59,111 bases of DNA, from positions 1 to 59,111 of the forward strand of contig NZ_JPMX01000014.1 in assembly GCF_000761485.1 (NCBI RefSeq), in the 5' to 3' direction. The notes beneath the pieces are model-generated. The model made no database searches and was not told the DNA's origin. It saw only the letters and a program-made list of their open reading frames with translations. The position numbers and the translations under genes are program-made. This DNA is from Modestobacter caceresii (GTDB lineage Bacteria; Actinomycetota; Actinomycetes; Mycobacteriales; Geodermatophilaceae). Positions 40,829-49,140 of this stretch are shown one piece after another. The stretch's first letter is position 1. Each line of letters starts with the position of its first letter.

Positions 40829-43090
40829 ATGCCCGACGCCGACCTGTCCGGAGGAGACCTCGCCCTGGTGGCGATCGCGCTCCTCATCTCCCTCGCCGCC
40901 CTCGGCTTCGCCGCCTGGCTGGTCCGCGCGGTCCTGGCCGCCGACCAGGGCACGGCGTCGATGCAGGAGATCGCGAAGGCGATCCAGGAGGGCGCCGGGG
41001 CCTACCTGAGACGGCAGTACCGCACGCTCGCCGTCTTCGCCGCCATCGTCTTCGGGTTGCTGCTCCTGCTCCCGGTGGCCGACGGCGGCCTGGGCACCCG
41101 GCTGGGCCGCGCGGCCTTCTTCCTCGTCGGGGCCGCGTTCTCCGCCGCGGTCGGCTTCATCGGGATGACCCTGGCCACCCGCGGCAACGTCCGGGTGGCG
41201 GCCGCGGCGGCCGCCGGTGGGCACCGGCCCGCCTTCCGCATCGCGTTCCGCACCGGCGGCGTCTGCGGGATGATCACCGTGGGCCTGGGGCTCTTCGGGG
41301 CCTCGCTGGCGCTGCTGCTGTTCCGGGACACCGCGCCGATCGTGCTGGAGGGCTTCGGCTTCGGCGGCGCGCTGCTGGCGATGTTCATGCGGGTCGGCGG
41401 CGGCATCTTCACCAAGGCCGCCGACGTCGGCGCGGACCTGGTCGGCAAGGTCGAGGCCGGCATCCCGGAGGACGACCCGCGCAACGCCGCGACGATCGCG
41501 GACAACGTCGGGGACAACGTCGGCGACTGCGCGGGCATGGCCGCCGACCTCTTCGAGTCCTATGCGGTGACGCTGGTGGCCGCGCTGATCCTCGGCCAGG
41601 TGTTCTTCGGGCCGGTGGGCATGGTCTTCCCGCTGGTGGTGGCCGCGATCGGGGTGATCGCCTCCGTGGTCGGCATCCTGGCCAGCAACCCGGGCAGCAA
41701 CGACCGGAACTGGATGTCCCCGATCAACCGCGGCTTCTTCGTCTCCGCCGCCGTCTCCCTGGTGCTGGTCGCCGCCGCGTCCTTCACCGTCCTGCCCACG
41801 ATCTCCGACGGGCTGGACATCGCGGTCAGCCCGCAGGTGCTCGGCTTCCTGTCCGTCCTCATCGGCATCGTGCTGGCCGCGGCGATCCAGCAGCTCACCG
41901 GCTACTTCACCGAGACCTCTCGCCGGCCCGTCCGCGACGTCGGCCGCAGCTCGCTCACCGGCCCGGCGACGGTGATCCTCTCCGGCATCTCCCTGGGCCT
42001 GGAGTCGGCCGTCTACGCCGCGTTGCTCATCGGCACCGCCGTCTACGGCGCCTTCCTCATCGGCGGCGCCGCGGCGCTGTACGCGGTCGCGCTGGCCGGC
42101 TGCGGGCTGCTCACCACCGCCGGGGTCATCGTCTCGATGGACACCTTCGGCCCGGTGAGCGACAACGCGCAGGGCATCGCGGAGATGTCCGGGGACATCG
42201 ACGAGGAGGGCGCCCAGGTCCTCACCGACCTCGACGCCGTCGGCAACACCACCAAGGCGATCACCAAGGGCATCGCGATCGCCACCGCCGTGCTGGCGGC
42301 CACCGCGCTGTTCGGCTCCTACAACGCCAGCCTCATCGACGCGCTGGACGACGCCGGGACCGAGCTCGGCGACGCGCTCACCCTGGTCTCACCGAACAAC
42401 GTCGTCGGCGCCGTGGTCGGCGCGGCCGTCGTGTTCCTCTTCTCCGGGCTGGCGATCAGCGCGGTGTCGCGGGCCGCCGGCCGGGTGGTGTTCGAGGTGC
42501 GCGAACAGTTCCGCACCCACCCCGGGATCATGGACTACAGCGAGCGCCCCGACTACAGCCGCGTGGTCGACATCTGCACCCGGGACTCGCTGCGCGAACT
42601 GGCCACCCCCGGTCTGCTCGCCGTCCTGGCCCCGGTGGCGGTCGGCTTCGGTCTCGGCTTCGGCCCGCTGGCCGCCTACCTGGTCGGCGCGATCGCGACC
42701 GGCACGCTCATGGCGGTGTTCCTGTCCAACTCCGGCGGCGCCTGGGACAACGCCAAGAAGATGGTCGAGGACGGCGCCCACGGCGGGAAGGGCAGCCAGG
42801 CCCACGCGGCGACCATCATCGGCGACACCGTCGGCGACCCGTTCAAGGACACCGCCGGCCCGGCCATCAACCCGCTGATCAAGGTGATGAACCTGGTCGC
42901 GCTGCTGATCGCCCCGGCCGTCGTCGGGCTGTCCGTCGGCGAGGACGCCAACACCGTGTTGCGGCTGGCGATCGCCATCGGGGCGACCCTGGTGATCGCG
43001 GCGGCCGTGGTGGTCAGCAAGCGGCGGTCCAGCGTCGTGGGCGGCGAGACCGACGCGACGGCCGGGACGCTGACCACCAGCGCCCCCTGA
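40829..43090 (+). CDS. hppA: Membrane-bound proton-pumping pyrophosphatase
   Basis: Couples pyrophosphate hydrolysis to proton transport. It has 753 residues and about 15-16 membrane helices. Active-site loops are GGGIFTKAADVGADLVGK and the acidic DNVGDNVGDCAGMAADLFE (PPi and Mg2+ sites), then GDTVGDPFKDTAGPAINPL. GNTTKAITKG near residue 475 has Lys where K+-dependent enzymes have Ala, so this is the K+-independent type. The ATG at 40829 follows GGAGGAACC. The open frame upstream is antisense to the helicase gene and not part of the protein. Confidence 0.97.
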   Translation: MPDADLSGGDLALVAIALLISLAALGFAAWLVRAVLAADQGTASMQEIAKAIQEGAGAYLRRQYRTLAVFAAIVFGLLLLLPVADGGLGTRLGRAAFFLVGAAFSAAVGFIGMTLATRGNVRVAAAAAAGGHRPAFRIAFRTGGVCGMITVGLGLFGASLALLLFRDTAPIVLEGFGFGGALLAMFMRVGGGIFTKAADVGADLVGKVEAGIPEDDPRNAATIADNVGDNVGDCAGMAADLFESYAVTLVAALILGQVFFGPVGMVFPLVVAAIGVIASVVGILASNPGSNDRNWMSPINRGFFVSAAVSLVLVAAASFTVLPTISDGLDIAVSPQVLGFLSVLIGIVLAAAIQQLTGYFTETSRRPVRDVGRSSLTGPATVILSGISLGLESAVYAALLIGTAVYGAFLIGGAAALYAVALAGCGLLTTAGVIVSMDTFGPVSDNAQGIAEMSGDIDEEGAQVLTDLDAVGNTTKAITKGIAIATAVLAATALFGSYNASLIDALDDAGTELGDALTLVSPNNVVGAVVGAAVVFLFSGLAISAVSRAAGRVVFEVREQFRTHPGIMDYSERPDYSRVVDICTRDSLRELATPGLLAVLAPVAVGFGLGFGPLAAYLVGAIATGTLMAVFLSNSGGAWDNAKKMVEDGAHGGKGSQAHAATIIGDTVGDPFKDTAGPAINPLIKVMNLVALLIAPAVVGLSVGEDANTVLRLAIAIGATLVIAAAVVVSKRRSSVVGGETDATAGTLTTSAP

Positions 43091-43363
43091 GGGCCATGGC
43101 CTGCGCCCGGATGCTGGGACGACGGTGGCCCGGCACCTCGGTCAGCTGGCATGTCCGGTGAACACCGCGGTGCCCGAGCCGCTGTCGGTGAGTTCGACGT
43201 CCGCGCCGGTCCCTTGGTCCGAGGACGTTGGCCGTCCGGTCCGAGAAGGGCGCCCACGAGGACGGCTTCTCCACGAGTAGCGCCCATCGGGGTCATGCCG
43301 ATGATGGAGGTGTCGCATCGCTGACCTACCCCGGTGAAGAGCCAGCTGGCCCGATCGACGGGC
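43091..43363. other. Gap between hppA and the accessory island
   Basis: No complete gene is visible in this 273-base stretch. On the minus strand, 43142-43210 reads as the end of a lost protein (see the separate entry). No terminator-like inverted repeat was found behind hppA. Confidence 0.5.
43142..43210 (-). pseudogene. Possible remnant of a TasA/camelysin-like protein
   Basis: Read on the minus strand this gives ADVELTDSGSGTAVFTGHAS before a TGA stop. The piece VELTDSGSGTAVF is close to IDLTDNDAGTAMF in the TasA-like protein at 46393-47028. No intact upstream portion or start is visible. It may be the edge of a decayed paralogue; the match is short. Confidence 0.3.
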
Positions 43364-44038
43364 TCAGCCCCAGTCCAACACCAGTTCAGCCGCTGTGCCG
43401 GTGTTCTGCCGGGCATCGTAGGTCTGTTCGTACTGGGTGCTCGAGTCCTCGTTTCGGTCCTTGAGCATGAAGCCGTTGTTGCCCTGGGCGTATTGGGCGC
43501 TGACGTGGTCGAAGACACCCCACACCTGCCAGCCGGCACCGCTCAGGATGCTGCCGCCGATGGGGAATCCGACACCGGCGGGCTGGTTCGCCCAGTTGAT
43601 CGTCGTCTCCGACCACGTCGCTGCGACCGGGTCACCCCGAAGGACGTCGATCACCCGTTCGACGTTCGGCTGGCGGTTGTAGACCCGGAGGGTGGCTGCG
43701 GTGAGCTCACACCCGGCCGGTACCGCCGGCAGGTCGAACCGGATCCACGTGCGCACGTTGCGCGAGAGGACTGATCGGACGCGCAGCAGCGAGTCGCTGT
43801 CGTAGTTGCTGGTTGGGGAGTTCTGGTCGGTGTAGGAGTCGCCGACGGCGATCCGGGTGGTCGACCCCGGAGTCGTGCAGAAACTCGCGGCGGCGCTGAT
43901 CGAGTTGCCGCTGTCGTCGGTGGTCGCCGTGAAGGCGCCCGCGACCGGGTTCTGCGCCAGCAGCACCGTCAGGCCCGCCGCGACCAGCGCCGCGAGCGTC
44001 CGGGAGGCCCACCGTACGCGGCGGCGAGCCGGGCTCAC
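43364..44038 (-). CDS. DNRLRE-domain secreted protein with SipW-type signal
   Basis: A 224-residue exported protein. The signal segment LAALVAAGLTVLLAQNPVAG is followed by AFTATTDDSGNSISAA, the (A)F-x-A-x-T-(D)-x-(G)N pattern seen after SipW-type signal peptides. The rest matches DNRLRE domains, with LRVYNRQPNVERVIDVLRGD and WSETTINWANQPAG, which form beta-sandwich surface modules. A similar AF(T/N)A motif occurs in the TasA-like protein of the same cluster, so both are probable substrates of the nearby signal peptidase. The start is GTG at 44038, 73 bases after the GGDEF gene. Confidence 0.8.
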   Translation of the reverse strand: MSPARRRVRWASRTLAALVAAGLTVLLAQNPVAGAFTATTDDSGNSISAAASFCTTPGSTTRIAVGDSYTDQNSPTSNYDSDSLLRVRSVLSRNVRTWIRFDLPAVPAGCELTAATLRVYNRQPNVERVIDVLRGDPVAATWSETTINWANQPAGVGFPIGGSILSGAGWQVWGVFDHVSAQYAQGNNGFMLKDRNEDSSTQYEQTYDARQNTGTAAELVLDWG

Positions 44039-44111
44039 GAGTTCGCCTCGCTAGCACTCGTCGGCCTCGTTCGCGTAGCTGGTGTGCCCATGCGGGAGCC
44101 CGCACGCACGC

Positions 44112-45680
44112 TCACGCCGGTGCCCCGGCCAGCTCGCCCTGCGCAGACCCGCCGGCCTTCTTGCTGCGCTTCACCTCGTACATGAGCTGGTCGGCGCAGC
44201 CGAGCAGCGCGTCGAGATCCCGCTCGCCGTCATCGGCGTGTGCGACCCCGATGCTCACGCCGATCCGGGCCATTCCCGCCTCCAGGAGGAACGGCCGGTC
44301 CAGGTCGGCCTCGATCCGCCGGCCGAGACCGGCGAGGTCCTCGTCCGAGGCGCCGGGCACGACGACGACGAACTCGTCACCACCCATCCGGCCGAGCACG
44401 CTGCCCGAGCGCAGGCCGCCCTCCAGTCGCCTCGCCACCTGCTCCAAGAGCTCATCGCCGGCGGCGTGGCCGAGGGTGTCGTTGACACCCTTGAAGCCGT
44501 CCAGATCGCAGAACAGCACGCCGAGGCGGCCGGGCAGCTGCTCGGCGCGCAGCACCAGACCTCGGCGGTTGAGCAGGCCGGTCAACTGGTCGCGGGTGGC
44601 CTGCTCCTCGAAGGTCTGCTTCAGCTGTTCCAACTGCTGGACGAGCATGGCGTTGGCCAACGCGACCCGCGCCTGGGCCACCAGCAGGTCGAGTGCATCC
44701 AGGCGACGGGTCACCTCTTCGGCAGAGCCGACGACCACGGCGGTGAACGTGTAGGGAGTTCCGCCGGGGACCGTCAGCTGACGGGTCAGGACGGCGGACC
44801 GGTCTTCCGCATCCGGCGTGGTGGCGGTGGCAGGCGTCCCCCCACCGGGCCCGTCCCCGGCCACGGAGGGCACCGACTGCGCATCGCCCGCGGCCGCGAG
44901 CAGCGGCTGGGCGTGCCGGCCCGCTCCGGGGTCGATGACCGTGGCACCGATCGCGCCGAGCCGCTGAGCGCCGGTCACCAGCTGCACGAGCACCGCATCC
45001 CCATCCAGCGGGAAGATGTCCGCGGTGATGGCGGAGAGGTCGCCCAGCAGCCGGGCGCGGTCGTCGGCCGCCGTACGCGCCTCGGCAAGTCGACCGACCT
45101 GGGCGACGAGGTGCTCGGCCAGCATGGCCACGGGGATGGTGGCGAGCAGCAAGGTCGGCATGGCGATGACCAGGACGCCGAATGCCTCGTCCGGGACCTG
45201 ACCGGGAAGAGTCATGACGAGCGCGCCAAGGAGCACCGACGACGCCGTCCACAGTCCCGCCAGCCCCGTCAGGCCGAACCACAGGGCCGCTTCCAGAAAC
45301 GGGAGCATCAGCAGGACGAGCGCGAAGGACTGCGGCGGGAGGCCGGCCAGGCCCACCACCCCGAGCACCACCACGGCGTCGGCCACCGTGCCCGCCAGCG
45401 CCAGCTTCGACCGCCGGCCCGCTGCCGCCGTGGCGGCGCGGGCGGTGAGCAGAGCGACCAGCAGGAGGATCGCGGCGGCACCGCCGGCCAGGGGGAAGGC
45501 GAGGTCGCGACCGAGGGGCCCACCCGCCGCCGGACGATGGCCCGCGCCACCGACCAGCAGCAGGGCTACCGCGATGAGCCGGATCTGGCCAATGGCCCGC
45601 TCGGCGACCGAGCGCCCACCCTGGCGGCTGTCGTCATGGTCGGGTCGGCCGGCAGCACTGGTGAACGGGTGACGGGTCAT
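44112..45680 (-). CDS. Membrane diguanylate cyclase (GGDEF domain)
   Basis: Makes the second messenger c-di-GMP. It has 522 residues: about five membrane helices (about 30-190), a linker domain of about 120 residues that may be GAF-like, then the GGDEF domain with DQLTGLLNRRGL, FCDLDGFKGVNDTLGH and the intact catalytic motif RMGGDEFVVV near residue 433. The inhibitory RxxD site before GGDEF reads RSGS, so product feedback is probably lost. The ATG at 45680 overlaps the signal peptidase stop as ATGA, coupling its translation to the export unit. Confidence 0.92.
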   Translation of the reverse strand: MTRHPFTSAAGRPDHDDSRQGGRSVAERAIGQIRLIAVALLLVGGAGHRPAAGGPLGRDLAFPLAGGAAAILLLVALLTARAATAAAGRRSKLALAGTVADAVVVLGVVGLAGLPPQSFALVLLMLPFLEAALWFGLTGLAGLWTASSVLLGALVMTLPGQVPDEAFGVLVIAMPTLLLATIPVAMLAEHLVAQVGRLAEARTAADDRARLLGDLSAITADIFPLDGDAVLVQLVTGAQRLGAIGATVIDPGAGRHAQPLLAAAGDAQSVPSVAGDGPGGGTPATATTPDAEDRSAVLTRQLTVPGGTPYTFTAVVVGSAEEVTRRLDALDLLVAQARVALANAMLVQQLEQLKQTFEEQATRDQLTGLLNRRGLVLRAEQLPGRLGVLFCDLDGFKGVNDTLGHAAGDELLEQVARRLEGGLRSGSVLGRMGGDEFVVVVPGASDEDLAGLGRRIEADLDRPFLLEAGMARIGVSIGVAHADDGERDLDALLGCADQLMYEVKRSKKAGGSAQGELAGAPA

Positions 45681-46414
45681 GAGAGGCCTTTCAGCAGCTG
45701 GAGAGTGCGGGCGGCAGCAACACCGCTCTGTCCGGCGAGCCGTTCGTGGACGAGGTCGTGCAGGTCCTCCGACAGCAGGCGGCTGCTGTCTGTACGTCGG
45801 TCGCTGGGATGCGCGCCAGCACGGTCCAACAGGACCTCGGCGGGGTTCACCCGTTGGGCGGCCGCCCACGGGTCGAAGGCGGGGTCGAAGGCCCGGGGGG
45901 CCAGTGCCAGCAGGACCAGGAGGGTGATCCCGGCGGCGGCGAGCGGAAGCGCCCGGCCCTCGTGCAACCACAGGGACGGTCGTCCGATCCACGGCACCGC
46001 GAGGACCGCAGCTCCGCGGACGTCCGCCACCGCGACCGGGGCGCTGTCGACATCGACGTTGGCGTCGCCGCGGGTCCGGAAGGTCCCGTCGGGCAGCTCT
46101 TCGACGATCCGGTGCAGGATCCGGTCGCTCTCGGATCGGCCGTAGAGGACGACCGTGTCGGGGCCCAGGTCCGCGGATGACACCGGTCGGATCATGACCA
46201 CGTCGCCGGGGCTCACCAGGGGGGTCATCGAGCCGGAGGTCACCAGCGTCGGCGCCCAGCCGAGGAAGGCCCAGGGCAGGGCGATCCACAGAGCCAGACT
46301 GGCCACCATGGAGATGGCCAGCATGCTCACGGTGCCGGCCGCGTAGAGGGCCGGCCGGAGCCAGGCCCTGGTGGGGGACCCGAGGGCGCCGGTCAGCTGG
46401 TGCGCGTTTCCCAC
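45677..46414 (-). CDS. SipW-type signal peptidase I
   Basis: An ER/SipW-type signal peptidase of 245 residues. The nucleophile is Ser62 in TSGSMTPLVSPGDVV, and a His (His101 in RILHRIVEE) stands in place of the usual Lys, which marks the SipW class. GDANVDVDSAPV supplies the Asp region. Membrane helices lie before and after the catalytic domain. It is likely to process the TasA-like and DNRLRE proteins. Its GTG start lies 22 bases inside the end of the TasA-like gene. Confidence 0.92.
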   Translation of the reverse strand: MGNAHQLTGALGSPTRAWLRPALYAAGTVSMLAISMVASLALWIALPWAFLGWAPTLVTSGSMTPLVSPGDVVMIRPVSSADLGPDTVVLYGRSESDRILHRIVEELPDGTFRTRGDANVDVDSAPVAVADVRGAAVLAVPWIGRPSLWLHEGRALPLAAAGITLLVLLALAPRAFDPAFDPWAAAQRVNPAEVLLDRAGAHPSDRRTDSSRLLSEDLHDLVHERLAGQSGVAAARTLQLLKGLS

Positions 46415-47028
46415 GTGAACCCGAACGTCGAGGTCTGGCCCTCGGCCGCCTGGTCATCCTGCACGGAGACGCGGAAGCGGAAGGTCCGCGTCTCCGGGTT
46501 GGCGACCGGGTCCCAGGTGTTCAGGCCGGCGCCATAGCTGCTGTGCGCCGTCGCGAAGCCCGCAAGGGTTCCGGTGTACAGGGTGGCGGTGGAGGAGAAG
46601 TTGGTGCAGCTCCGGAATGCGTCCGTGGTGTCGGCACCGATGTCGACGGTCAGGTTCAGGTAGGGCGCCAACCCCCCGGTCGGCGCCGATGTCGCATACA
46701 GCAGCACCGCGCCCGGGTCAACTGTGCCGGTGTAGGTGACGTCGATGCAGCGGTCCACGGGAGTGGCCCCGGGGACGAGGCCGGTGACGTTCGCGAACAT
46801 CGCGGTGCCGGCGTCGTTGTCGGTCAGGTCGATGGCCCCAGCGCTGACCTGGTTGGGAGAGTTCTCGGTCTGGGCGTTGAAGGCGGCCCGGGACGACGTG
46901 ACGACGAGCAGAGCGACCAGGATGAACGACAGTGCGAGTGCACACAGCTGCAGCGCCAGGCCGTTCAGTGAACGCCTGACACCCAGTCGGGTCAGGATCC
47001 CGGCCGGGCGGGCCGCTGGCGAGTTCAT
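46393..47028 (-). CDS. TasA/camelysin-like secreted protein
   Basis: A 211-residue exported protein and the first gene of the island operon. The long signal anchor ends LLVVTSSRAAFNAQTENS, the SipW-type cleavage pattern. The mature part starts AIDLTDNDAGTAMFANVTGL, like TasA/CalY family N-termini, followed by a beta-rich domain with CIDVTYTGT and a single disulfide candidate. TasA forms matrix fibres in Bacillus; the actinobacterial relatives are uncharacterised as far as I know. Start chosen at ATG 47028; GTG at 47085 is an alternative. Confidence 0.78.
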   Translation of the reverse strand: MNSPAARPAGILTRLGVRRSLNGLALQLCALALSFILVALLVVTSSRAAFNAQTENSPNQVSAGAIDLTDNDAGTAMFANVTGLVPGATPVDRCIDVTYTGTVDPGAVLLYATSAPTGGLAPYLNLTVDIGADTTDAFRSCTNFSSTATLYTGTLAGFATAHSSYGAGLNTWDPVANPETRTFRFRVSVQDDQAAEGQTSTFGFTWETRTS

Positions 47029-47257
47029 GCCCAGATCGTCGGAGTGCGACCGCGGAACCTTGAGCGTCTGCAGCTTGATACCCACAAGGGGTGATCCGCC
47101 GACCGCGCCGGTGCCGCGCGGGGACCAGGGCGACGGCGGCCGCTGGCTGTGGATACCAGCTGCGGGTGTGGACGACGGCACCCGTACCGGCCACCGGTCT
47201 CCCTAGCGTTCCCGGCGTCGGTCCTTCCCCGGGGCCGCTGTCGCGCCGGGAGGCCAC

Positions 47258-47581
47258 GTGTCCCATCTGATCTCCGTCCAGCTCGACGCGCTGGCCGCCT
47301 TGCTGGCGGAGCTGACCGCACTGGGTGCTGAGCTCGGAGAGGACGGCGAGCTGACCGCAGCGACCGGGCGGTCGCTGGGCACCGCGTTGGACGGCCCGGT
47401 GGGGGTGTCGGCCGCCGCGGCCGGCGCGGGCTGGGCGGGCGCGTTGACCGCCCTGACTGCCCGGACGCTTGCGGTCGCGGCGACCCTGGAAGCGGCGCTG
47501 GGGGCCTACCGGAGAGCGGATGCCGGGATCGCCGGCCGGATCGACCCGGGCTGGGCCGGCCGGGTGCCGGTGCCGCGGTGA
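47258..47581 (+). CDS. Small helical WXG100-like protein
   Basis: A 107-residue Ala/Leu/Gly-rich protein predicted to be helical: VQLDALAALLAELTALGAEL, then a helix with AAAGAGWAGALTALTARTL. It has a Trp-Ala-Gly where WXG100 proteins have Trp-x-Gly. It overlaps the DUF1023 hydrolase gene by four bases (GTGA). In other actinobacteria such small helical partners precede DUF1023 enzymes. ESX-type secretion is possible, but no ESX machinery is present here. Confidence 0.6.
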   Translation: MSHLISVQLDALAALLAELTALGAELGEDGELTAATGRSLGTALDGPVGVSAAAAGAGWAGALTALTARTLAVAATLEAALGAYRRADAGIAGRIDPGWAGRVPVPR

Positions 47582-49140
47582 CGACGATGGTCGAACTCGC
47601 GGACTGGGACGTCCCACAGCTGCGGGGAGCCGTGGTCACCCTTGGCGTGGTGGCCGAGCGACTGGTGCCGTGGCGGCACCGGCTGGACGCACTGGGCCGG
47701 CAGCTCGGTGCGGCGGAGTGCTGGTCGGGTCCGGCCGGGACGGTGGCCGCTGCGGCGCTCGTCGAGCTGTCCACGGTCGCCTCGGTCGTCGGTGGGGCGC
47801 TGGCGGCCTCGCTGGCCGACCTGGCCGGGCTGAGCGCCGCCGCGGACGAGGCGCAGGAGCTCGCCGCCGAGGCCCTGGCGGTCGCGACCGCCGGTGGGGT
47901 CGGTCTGGACGGCGCCGGCCGGGCGGTCGGGGTCCCCGCGCCGCCCTCCCCGGCGATGGCGCCGGACCAGTTGGCCGACGTCGAGTCCGCCCGGACCGCC
48001 GCGGTGCTCGCCGAGGCCAGGGCCGAGGAGGCCGGTGTCGCGGCAGCCCGGGCGCAGGCGTGTGCCGGGGCCGCCCTCGAGCCGCTGGCGCAGCTCGGTG
48101 CAGTCGCCGTCCCGGTGCCGGACCGCTTCGCCGACCTGGTCGGCCGGTTGCTGCCGGTGCGGACGCCGCAGGTGCCGGCCACGGCCGGCCCCCAGGACGC
48201 GGCGGCCTGGTGGGCGGGCCTGACGGCAGCTGGGCAGCTGCTGGCGATCGACGGGCAGCCAGGAGTCGTCGGCGCCCTGGACGGGCTGCCGGCCTGGGCG
48301 CGCGACCAGGCGAACCGGGCCAACCTGGTGGCGGCGCTGGCCCACCTCCCGCCGGGGACGGCCGGCCACGACACGGCCGACGCGGTGCGGCGCGCTCTCG
48401 CCGCGGTGGCGGCCGGTGGCGCCGAGGCCCAGCTCCTGCAGTTCGACCCGGCGATCGGCCTGGTGGCCCTGTCCGTCGGCGACCTGGACACCGCTGCGGC
48501 CGTGGGCGTGCTCGTCCCGGGCATCAACACCACGCCCGTCGACGACCTGGCCGAGCTGGTGGGGGACGCCAGGGACGTCGCGGCGGCCGCGGCGACGGCC
48601 GCCCCGGGCCTGGCCGTGGCCACGGTCGCCTGGCTGGGTTACCAGACCCCCAGGACGCGCTCAGCCTGGACGCCCGGAGCGGCCGGCTGGGGCGGCCGAG
48701 CGCTCGACCGGGCCCTCGACGGGCTCGCTGCCGCCCGTACTGCGCCGGACGGCGTGAGCCCCCCGGCCGGTGGCCGGGCAGCCGCTGTGCCGGCGCCCCC
48801 ACGGACGACGGTGCTGGCGCACAGCTACGGCACGGTGGTCGCGGGGAAGGCGGCGCGTGCACCGGGCCGGCTGGCCGCCGATGCACTCGTCCTGCTCGGC
48901 AGCCCCGGGTTGGCCGGCCAGGTCGAGGAACTGGAGGCGTCGGAGGTGTACGGCGCCTGGTCGCCGGCTGACCCGGTCTCCTGGCTGGAGTGGTTCGGTG
49001 ACACCCCGGCCGACCCCTCGTTCGGCGACGTCCCCCTGCCCACCGACCCGACCCAGGGGCACACCGAGTACTACGACCGCGACCGCCCGACGCTGGCCGC
49101 GATCGGCGAGGTCGTCGCCGGCACCCGGGAGCCGCGATGA
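47578..49140 (+). CDS. Alpha/beta hydrolase of the DUF1023 family with WXG-like N-terminus
   Basis: A 520-residue protein. The first 200 residues are Ala-rich helices like a WXG100/LXG region. The C-terminal half is a DUF1023 alpha/beta hydrolase with the nucleophile elbow TTVLAHSYGTVVAGKAA (Ser in H-S-Y-G), GPGINTTP-type oxyanion strand (VLVPGINTT) and PADPVSW near the catalytic Asp. The substrate is unknown; lipid or peptide ester hydrolysis has been suggested for the family. It is translationally coupled to the WXG-like gene. Confidence 0.8.
   Translation: MTTMVELADWDVPQLRGAVVTLGVVAERLVPWRHRLDALGRQLGAAECWSGPAGTVAAAALVELSTVASVVGGALAASLADLAGLSAAADEAQELAAEALAVATAGGVGLDGAGRAVGVPAPPSPAMAPDQLADVESARTAAVLAEARAEEAGVAAARAQACAGAALEPLAQLGAVAVPVPDRFADLVGRLLPVRTPQVPATAGPQDAAAWWAGLTAAGQLLAIDGQPGVVGALDGLPAWARDQANRANLVAALAHLPPGTAGHDTADAVRRALAAVAAGGAEAQLLQFDPAIGLVALSVGDLDTAAAVGVLVPGINTTPVDDLAELVGDARDVAAAAATAAPGLAVATVAWLGYQTPRTRSAWTPGAAGWGGRALDRALDGLAAARTAPDGVSPPAGGRAAAVPAPPRTTVLAHSYGTVVAGKAARAPGRLAADALVLLGSPGLAGQVEELEASEVYGAWSPADPVSWLEWFGDTPADPSFGDVPLPTDPTQGHTEYYDRDRPTLAAIGEVVAGTREPR

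Follow-up and report, generated by a model that had tools for sequence, protein, structure and literature searches.

The locus discussed here raises the question of why a diguanylate cyclase (DGC) should be encoded within an operon that otherwise appears to build an extracellular fibre. The window, the whole 59,111-nt stretch of Modestobacter caceresii DNA that was analysed (contig NZ_JPMX01000014.1), carries on its minus strand, from 47028 to 43364, genes for a TasA-like secreted protein, a SipW-type signal peptidase, a DGC and a secreted CBM96/DNRLRE-domain protein. TasA fibres are best studied in Bacillus, and to our knowledge the Bacillus tapA-sipW-tasA operon includes neither a DGC nor a CBM96 gene. 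A first-pass annotation, made from the sequence, took the unit for a fibre-export system with second-messenger control. The explanation preferred here, held as probable with some reserve, is an accessory operon whose products form a TasA-type extracellular fibre within a flagellar-type regulon linked to cyclic di-GMP (c-di-GMP), with its own DGC acting as feedback. The parts are of known kinds and their wiring is new, the DGC, the CBM96 partner and a flagellar-like promoter element being the new parts; gene content, order, overlaps, co-occurrence, fold, motif conservation, the promoter-like element and the foreign composition are computed observations.

Re-derived from the DNA, the four genes stand head to tail at the positions first proposed. 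The TasA-fold secreted protein (46393..47028, minus strand; 211 aa) has a signal helix at about residues 21-48, a predicted cut before A49-F50 and a β-sandwich spanning residues 65-211 or so. Its gene is overlapped by 22 nt by that of the signal peptidase (45677..46414, minus strand; 245 aa), which bears Ser62, His101 and a C-terminal tail of about 65 residues. The peptidase stop and the start of the membrane DGC (44112..45680, minus strand; 522 aa, with an intact GGDEF motif and a lost I-site) overlap as ATGA, the coupling that had been proposed from the sequence. The last gene (43364..44038, minus strand) encodes a protein in which an AF pattern follows the signal helix, as in the TasA-like protein, and its naming as a DNRLRE protein is borne out by matches above cut-off to both CBM96 (PF24517; E 2.7e-20, 73.3 bits against a cut-off of 26) and DNRLRE (NF033679; 78.4 bits against 34).

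The likeness of the first protein to TasA and camelysin lies in its fold. Structure prediction followed by a fold search ranks the TasA fibre (8AUR) first, so that the structural likeness on which the annotation had staked its claim was found and the claim stands. Archaeal bundling pili and the 0406/thread filament (7UEG, 7PNB), which differ in being archaeal, gave a weaker fold match than TasA, level with unrelated matches. By sequence, the sole Pfam match at E <= 1 is a weak, non-significant one to PF12389 (E 0.076; 13.3 bits, cut-off 22.5), and because this falls below the cut-off the protein is called TasA-fold and not an M73 member by sequence. As the PF12389 family is named for a metallo-endopeptidase, the match favours, faintly, a secreted enzyme or effector of camelysin (M73) type in place of a fibre subunit, an alternative that appears very improbable beside the fold ranking.

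The second protein matches TIGR02228 (E 2.8e-13; 50.0 bits, just below the cut-off of 51.85) and NF046067 (E 1.7e-10; 40.8 bits, far below the cut-off of 190) and has no Pfam match at E <= 1; as both scores lie below the curated cut-offs, it is filed as SipW-type only and not as an equivalog of Bacillus SipW. Residues S62, H101 and G116-N119 are invariant in 7/7 aligned copies, and S62 and H101, which we take to be the catalytic Ser-His pair found in place of Ser-Lys, agree with the Ser-His assignment made at first pass. The AF(T/N)A(T/Q)T pattern remarked upon in both secreted proteins is likewise real. Its Phe is invariant in all 12 aligned TasA-type proteins, in all five aligned CBM96 partners and among 120 listed TasA homologues; the protein searches gave at least 740 matches to the TasA alignment and at least 150 to the DGC sensor half, with 120 of each listed. 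The count relies on alignment, since a regular expression for the cleavage motif is insensitive and missed 27 of the 120. One to three proteins with Phe at P2' neighbour the co-encoded peptidase, a feature of the sequences alone, and to this extent the proposal that both secreted proteins are its substrates finds support. Aromatic residues at P2' hinder LepB, and the LepB block of Bacillus TasA was in good part traced to a Trp at P2, according to the available part of the source (PMC10269814).

The DGC is modelled with five long N-terminal helices, a mixed middle domain, a long helix and a GGDEF domain (PF00990, E 1.5e-34), in keeping with its annotation as a membrane GGDEF enzyme. An intact GG[D/E]EF motif is present in 117 of the 120 listed homologues and was not found in three, while the I-site RxxD is retained in 2/117 and lost in 115/117, so that the enzyme should not be shut off at that site by its own product. 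A fold search with the model listed 50 matches, all of them GGDEF proteins and none placing the sensor half, an absence that is no evidence of a new fold. Loss of the I-site could also befit a protein that is no active cyclase but a sensor or protein-protein switch, for example one gating the peptidase post-translationally through the peptidase's C-terminal tail. The two proteins are co-translated, and this tail (window 45877-45677, residues ~180-245) is kept in six of seven aligned copies, having diverged in G076; it could dock the DGC. Such a switch is nonetheless quite unlikely, as the GGDEF motif is intact in every one of the 117 homologues in which it was found, the loss of the I-site itself argues against product binding there, and none of the 120 listed homologues, the longest of 570 aa, looks like a SipW-DGC fusion.

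A peptidase search of 112 Geodermatophilaceae genomes returned eight at 50-100% identity, M. caceresii included, above a lower tier of 29-46%. The tasA-sipW-DGC operon, termed type A, occurs in 8/112 genomes, and a search with the DGC sensor half (residues 1-345) picked out the very eight that have a close SipW and none besides; among 397 genomes drawn from the order Mycobacteriales it matched six, all Geodermatophilaceae. Related genomes had been proposed as the place to look for the gene order, and tasA-sipW-DGC is kept in all seven single-contig copies, window included, which makes the operon more than chance; the eighth copy, that of G016, is broken across the ends of two contigs (L042, L097). 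In 7/7 single-contig copies the start codon of the DGC overlaps the stop of SipW (four ATGA, three GTGA), and this overlap persists across three or more different chromosomal neighbourhoods. The remaining content varies: each of the four g3 copies encodes a second TasA-like protein, as does L097 of G016, and a CBM96 gene was found in the window, L038, L040, L041, L043 and L097, with none in L037 or L039.

The operon is accessory. Its GC content of 71.2%, against 75.1% for the window, is matched or undercut by only 1.6% of segments of equal length, and each of the four genes has a third-position GC of 0.88, compared with 0.961 +/- 0.019 for 39 other window genes (z -4.1 to -4.4), so that the lower GC noted at first pass is confirmed. 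A 107-aa gene at 47258 marks the site in 23 genomes of the genus, this one included; the operon lies beside it in two (window and G093), and the other 21 lack the operon there, hppA following directly in 19 and a helicase in two. This hppA/47258-gene junction (window 43091-43363 and 47029-47257) is itself variable, the helicase being the direct neighbour in G090 and G099, and on the side of the operon where hppA lies in the window, G093 has the helicase. The window and G093 share 92% identity in topA, against 82-84% between the window and the other six carriers, while SipW identity is 68% for window and G093 and 67-70% for window and g3 copies. In the joined tree the window groups with the g3 copies (95/95) and a window-G093 grouping is rejected (p-AU 0.045); the GC of the G093 copy is only slightly lower than that of its surroundings (75.0% against 76.5%). 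Horizontal transfer of the operon is thus likely, though not strongly shown.

Transfer alone preserves linkage, and on composition, tree conflict and empty sites the DGC might be a co-inherited passenger that supplies the cell's general c-di-GMP pool without any role particular to the fibre, its linkage being a relic of block transfer. Each of seven genomes tested has 24-38 GGDEF proteins, and an adjacent same-strand GGDEF gene is missing from 24/25 loci of a related kind, in which SipW is fused to LamG domains. This explanation is weakened by the 7/7 overlap in differing neighbourhoods, by a sensor half that never leaves the operon in 112 genomes, and by a promoter element common to c-di-GMP genes that is described below. 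It is weakened further by a second DGC, separately tied to other TasA operons. The places of TasA match in Geodermatophilaceae were fetched as 60 loci, 56 of them with a TasA gene called, using our own gene caller and profiles and so far as the match and locus lists could be reconciled; they include type A, type B (TasA-SipW-TasA2-GGDEF), type C (SipW-LamG fusion loci) and type D (large GGDEF or GGDEF-EAL genes near TasA; L107, L108, L121). In 23/56 TasA loci a GGDEF gene is the immediate same-strand neighbour of a TasA or SipW gene, these loci comprising six type-A copies besides the window, 15 of type B and two beside large GGDEF(-EAL) genes; with 24-38 GGDEF genes per genome this is implausible as chance, although the relatives are not independent. 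Type-D adjacency was not counted as support, the L108 enzyme grouping with GGDEF genes from other places.

The type-B operons, found in 15 genomes, have a DGC from a separate GGDEF branch, and the TasA2-GGDEF gap is -4 nt in 13/15 as called. A tree of 70 GGDEF domains (seven type A, 13 type B with two identical ones dropped, three type D and 47 from other places) puts type-A and type-B cyclases on opposite sides of a 100/98 branch, and their union as one clade is rejected (p-AU 0.025). A profile alignment of the two spans only residues 296-508, the GGDEF half, and not the sensor halves. One type-B protein that was read, from L109, keeps the I-site motif RxxD, unlike type A, in which the Asp of that site is lost. 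From these separate branches it follows that c-di-GMP enzymes were probably recruited into TasA-SipW operons at least twice, and the passenger explanation is, on all this evidence, unlikely.

The operon's link to a wider regulon is suggested by what precedes tasA. At 47036..47063 on the minus strand lies a flagellar-like promoter element, TCAA at 47063-47060 followed, after a 16-nt spacer, by TCCGACGA at 47043-47036, which predicts a tasA transcript with little or no leader. TCAA-N16-NCCGA(T/C) stands 34-35 nt before the tasA ATG in 7/8 type-A copies; a stop between element and ATG in L037 and a distance shifted by one in L041 speak against a coding constraint. A count over 61 stretches, 865 kb in all, gave 21 sites for TCAAG-N15-GCCGAT where 20 first-order simulations gave none; for TCAAG-N15-NCCGAY it gave 27 sites, the simulations averaging 1.95 and never exceeding 5. 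The form TCA[AGT]-N15/16-[GC]CCGAT precedes 32/160 TasA, SipW, LamG, CBM96 or AxF genes against 5/624 others, and four of those five are SipW-type substrates that the rule missed, one judged by likeness to its L116 counterpart. Across nine whole genomes the strict pattern gave 55 matches against four for a reversed-pattern control. Thirty strict-pattern loci were listed and 25 have a downstream gene called: two EAL, one GGDEF, two GGDEF-EAL, one PilZ and two FlbD genes (L262, L281), three OmpR-type regulators, two GAF proteins and four TasA/AxF loci (two being one region), the remaining eight being a hexapeptide protein, a glycosyltransferase, three genes that match nothing in Pfam, one whose start lies 408 nt away and two matches inside genes. 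In flagellar loci a GCCGAG form precedes the sigma gene by flagellin (L244/L250 and L248). As a separate observation, the OmpR-type regulators follow TCAAG-N15-GCCGAT in L264, L279 and L280 (genomes G029, G026 and G028), with the element continued as CACCCG, and a regulator that resembles them, by reading, lies near the C60 locus of M. caceresii itself, described below.

Other candidate control elements were also sought. At 47079..47094 on the minus strand is a degenerate form of the inverted repeat CACCC-N4-GGGTG, a possible operator, with sequence TCACCCCTTGTGGGTA and a 5-nt spacer; it does not match the full pattern. Of the 25 sites with that pattern in the 865 kb, 19 precede a TasA gene of type A, B or C by no more than 300 nt (L040, L049-L054, L099, L109, L111-L116 and L123-L126), as do all nine sites of the strict TCACCC-N4-GGGTGA. 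The half-sites resemble the box of the c-di-GMP regulator BldD and the spacing does not (4 against 1); BldD was considered as the reader, and no claim is made for it. A c-di-GMP riboswitch was looked for by an Rfam scan of 42900-47700, with no match at E <= 1. As for sigma factors, the WhiG model scored above cut-off in 4/4 genomes tested, and a second, weaker flagellar-type sigma is encoded beside flagellin. The available text of PMC8325347 describes RsiG as a c-di-GMP-dependent inhibitor of WhiG, places it in 16/16 Geodermatophilaceae species examined, and gives a flagellar/WhiG consensus of TAAA at -35 and GCCGATAA at -10, with two mismatches at most in all.

On the preferred explanation, transcription would start at the flagellar-like element just before tasA, read by a sigma factor that may be WhiG, and the co-translated membrane DGC would make c-di-GMP whenever the operon is on. 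This c-di-GMP would probably be received by RsiG-WhiG, in which case the DGC would act as a feedback element on the fibre regulon. The TasA-like subunit, joined in some relatives by the second TasA-like protein, and the carbohydrate-binding CBM96 protein would be exported, presumably via Sec, and cut by the operon's own Ser-His peptidase at the P2'-Phe site, after which the subunits, to judge from their fold, would polymerise outside the cell. SipW processes and does not export, so that "export system" was too strong a term. Of the earlier idea of second-messenger control, the part that finds support is that the DGC belongs to the unit, in 8/112 genomes; for DGC control of export or processing support is lacking, and the evidence points instead to shared transcriptional control with the DGC as feedback.

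Several observations count against this explanation. The window element (TCAA, TCCGACGA) has 4/12 mismatches to the published consensus and the best relatives (L037, L038, L041) have three, all outside the published criterion, for which reason the element is called flagellar-like and not a WhiG promoter. It was not found in the type-A copy of G076. The 865 kb consist of loci chosen for TasA, from relatives that are not phylogenetically independent. The flagellar control is mixed, as the one element before flagellin itself is a TGAA form in a single genome (L246/L250), and none was listed for the flagellin loci L245, L247, L249 and L252. The second flagellar-type sigma means that WhiG need not read the element, and the RsiG motif gave no match near whiG or in fetched loci of at least 1 kb, though rsiG may lie elsewhere. 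For the fibre itself, the PF12389 match is below significance, and Arg47 occupies P2 of the TasA-like protein, without the Trp of Bacillus TasA. For the cyclase, the p-AU of 0.025 is modest; 24/25 SipW-LamG loci do without a directly adjacent same-strand GGDEF gene, as noted, and none was called within about 1.5 kb of 29 SipW loci of the wider class, from which it appears that TasA-SipW works without a DGC.

Among known systems, the nearest are the tapA-sipW-tasA operon of B. subtilis and tasA/calY-sipW of B. cereus, which also place a TasA-fold protein beside a Ser-His SipW-type peptidase. They share Phe at P2' of the cleavage site, as far as the available part of PMC10269814 goes. Here, unlike in Bacillus, tasA comes first and overlaps sipW, and a flagellar-like element takes the place of control by SinR, which represses tapA-sipW-tasA there (PMC5864091, in part); the effect of ydaJ-N overexpression on that operon remained to be clarified in the accessible portion of PMC5422440. 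A regulatory parallel comes from Rubrobacter radiotolerans, where the RsiG-(c-di-GMP)-WhiG regulon includes WhiG promoters before pilus genes and before DGC and phosphodiesterase (PDE) genes, according to the same available text (PMC8325347), so that flagellar-type promoters there, and flagellar-like elements here, precede both surface-filament and c-di-GMP genes; the filaments are type IV pili there and TasA/SipW fibres here, and the window element misses the criterion applied there. No published TasA-SipW operon with a DGC, and no TasA or SipW in Geodermatophilaceae, appeared among the matches listed in a search of titles and abstract openings in open-licence PMC.

Within the family, type C resembles the operon in combining a TasA gene, a SipW-type peptidase and a lectin-like secreted part, and differs in that the lectin-like Laminin_G_3 part is fused to the peptidase. 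These fusions number 28 proteins in 25/60 family loci (L044-L054, L095, L098 and others) and recur in 11/29 loci of the wider class (L185, L189-L193, L195, L197, L199-L201). In each, a SipW-type peptidase continues in frame into a further helix and LamG domains, which Pfam identified as Laminin_G_3 in the two cases tested, and an AxF-like site is often present; the product is apparently a signal peptidase made as a single chain with its own substrate. M. caceresii also has a second locus, on C60 (L055:7572-10855), that pairs an M73 protein (PF12389 above cut-off) with a SipW-type peptidase and includes a small AxF protein, with a histidine kinase and response regulators alongside, by reading only.

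The Geodermatophilaceae are dwellers of soil and desert rock. For Geodermatophilus obscurus G-20 strong production of an extracellular functional amyloid has been reported, together with a cycle of C-form and R-form with motile zoospores, and the available portion of that report names no gene for the amyloid (PMC3035280). Besides its type-B operon (L116), the G. obscurus genome (G048) has a further TasA locus in which the strict promoter element occurs twice (L117), which makes TasA-like proteins a candidate for this amyloid, although the signal of the WO2 antibody need not come from TasA. It is conceivable, if on balance doubtful, that in this family flagella, c-di-GMP enzymes and the TasA fibres processed by SipW all belong to a single flagellar-class (WhiG) regulon, which c-di-GMP would gate by way of RsiG, that the DGCs of the fibre operons are built-in feedback recruited at least twice, that the whole constitutes the switch between motile R-form and aggregated C-form, and that TasA-like protein is the G. 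obscurus amyloid. If the preferred explanation is right, TasA fibres in an actinobacterial family have come under a flagellar-type regulon linked to c-di-GMP, with a cyclase probably recruited at least twice, and this would provide a testable candidate both for the functional amyloid of G. obscurus and for the control of its C-form/R-form cycle.

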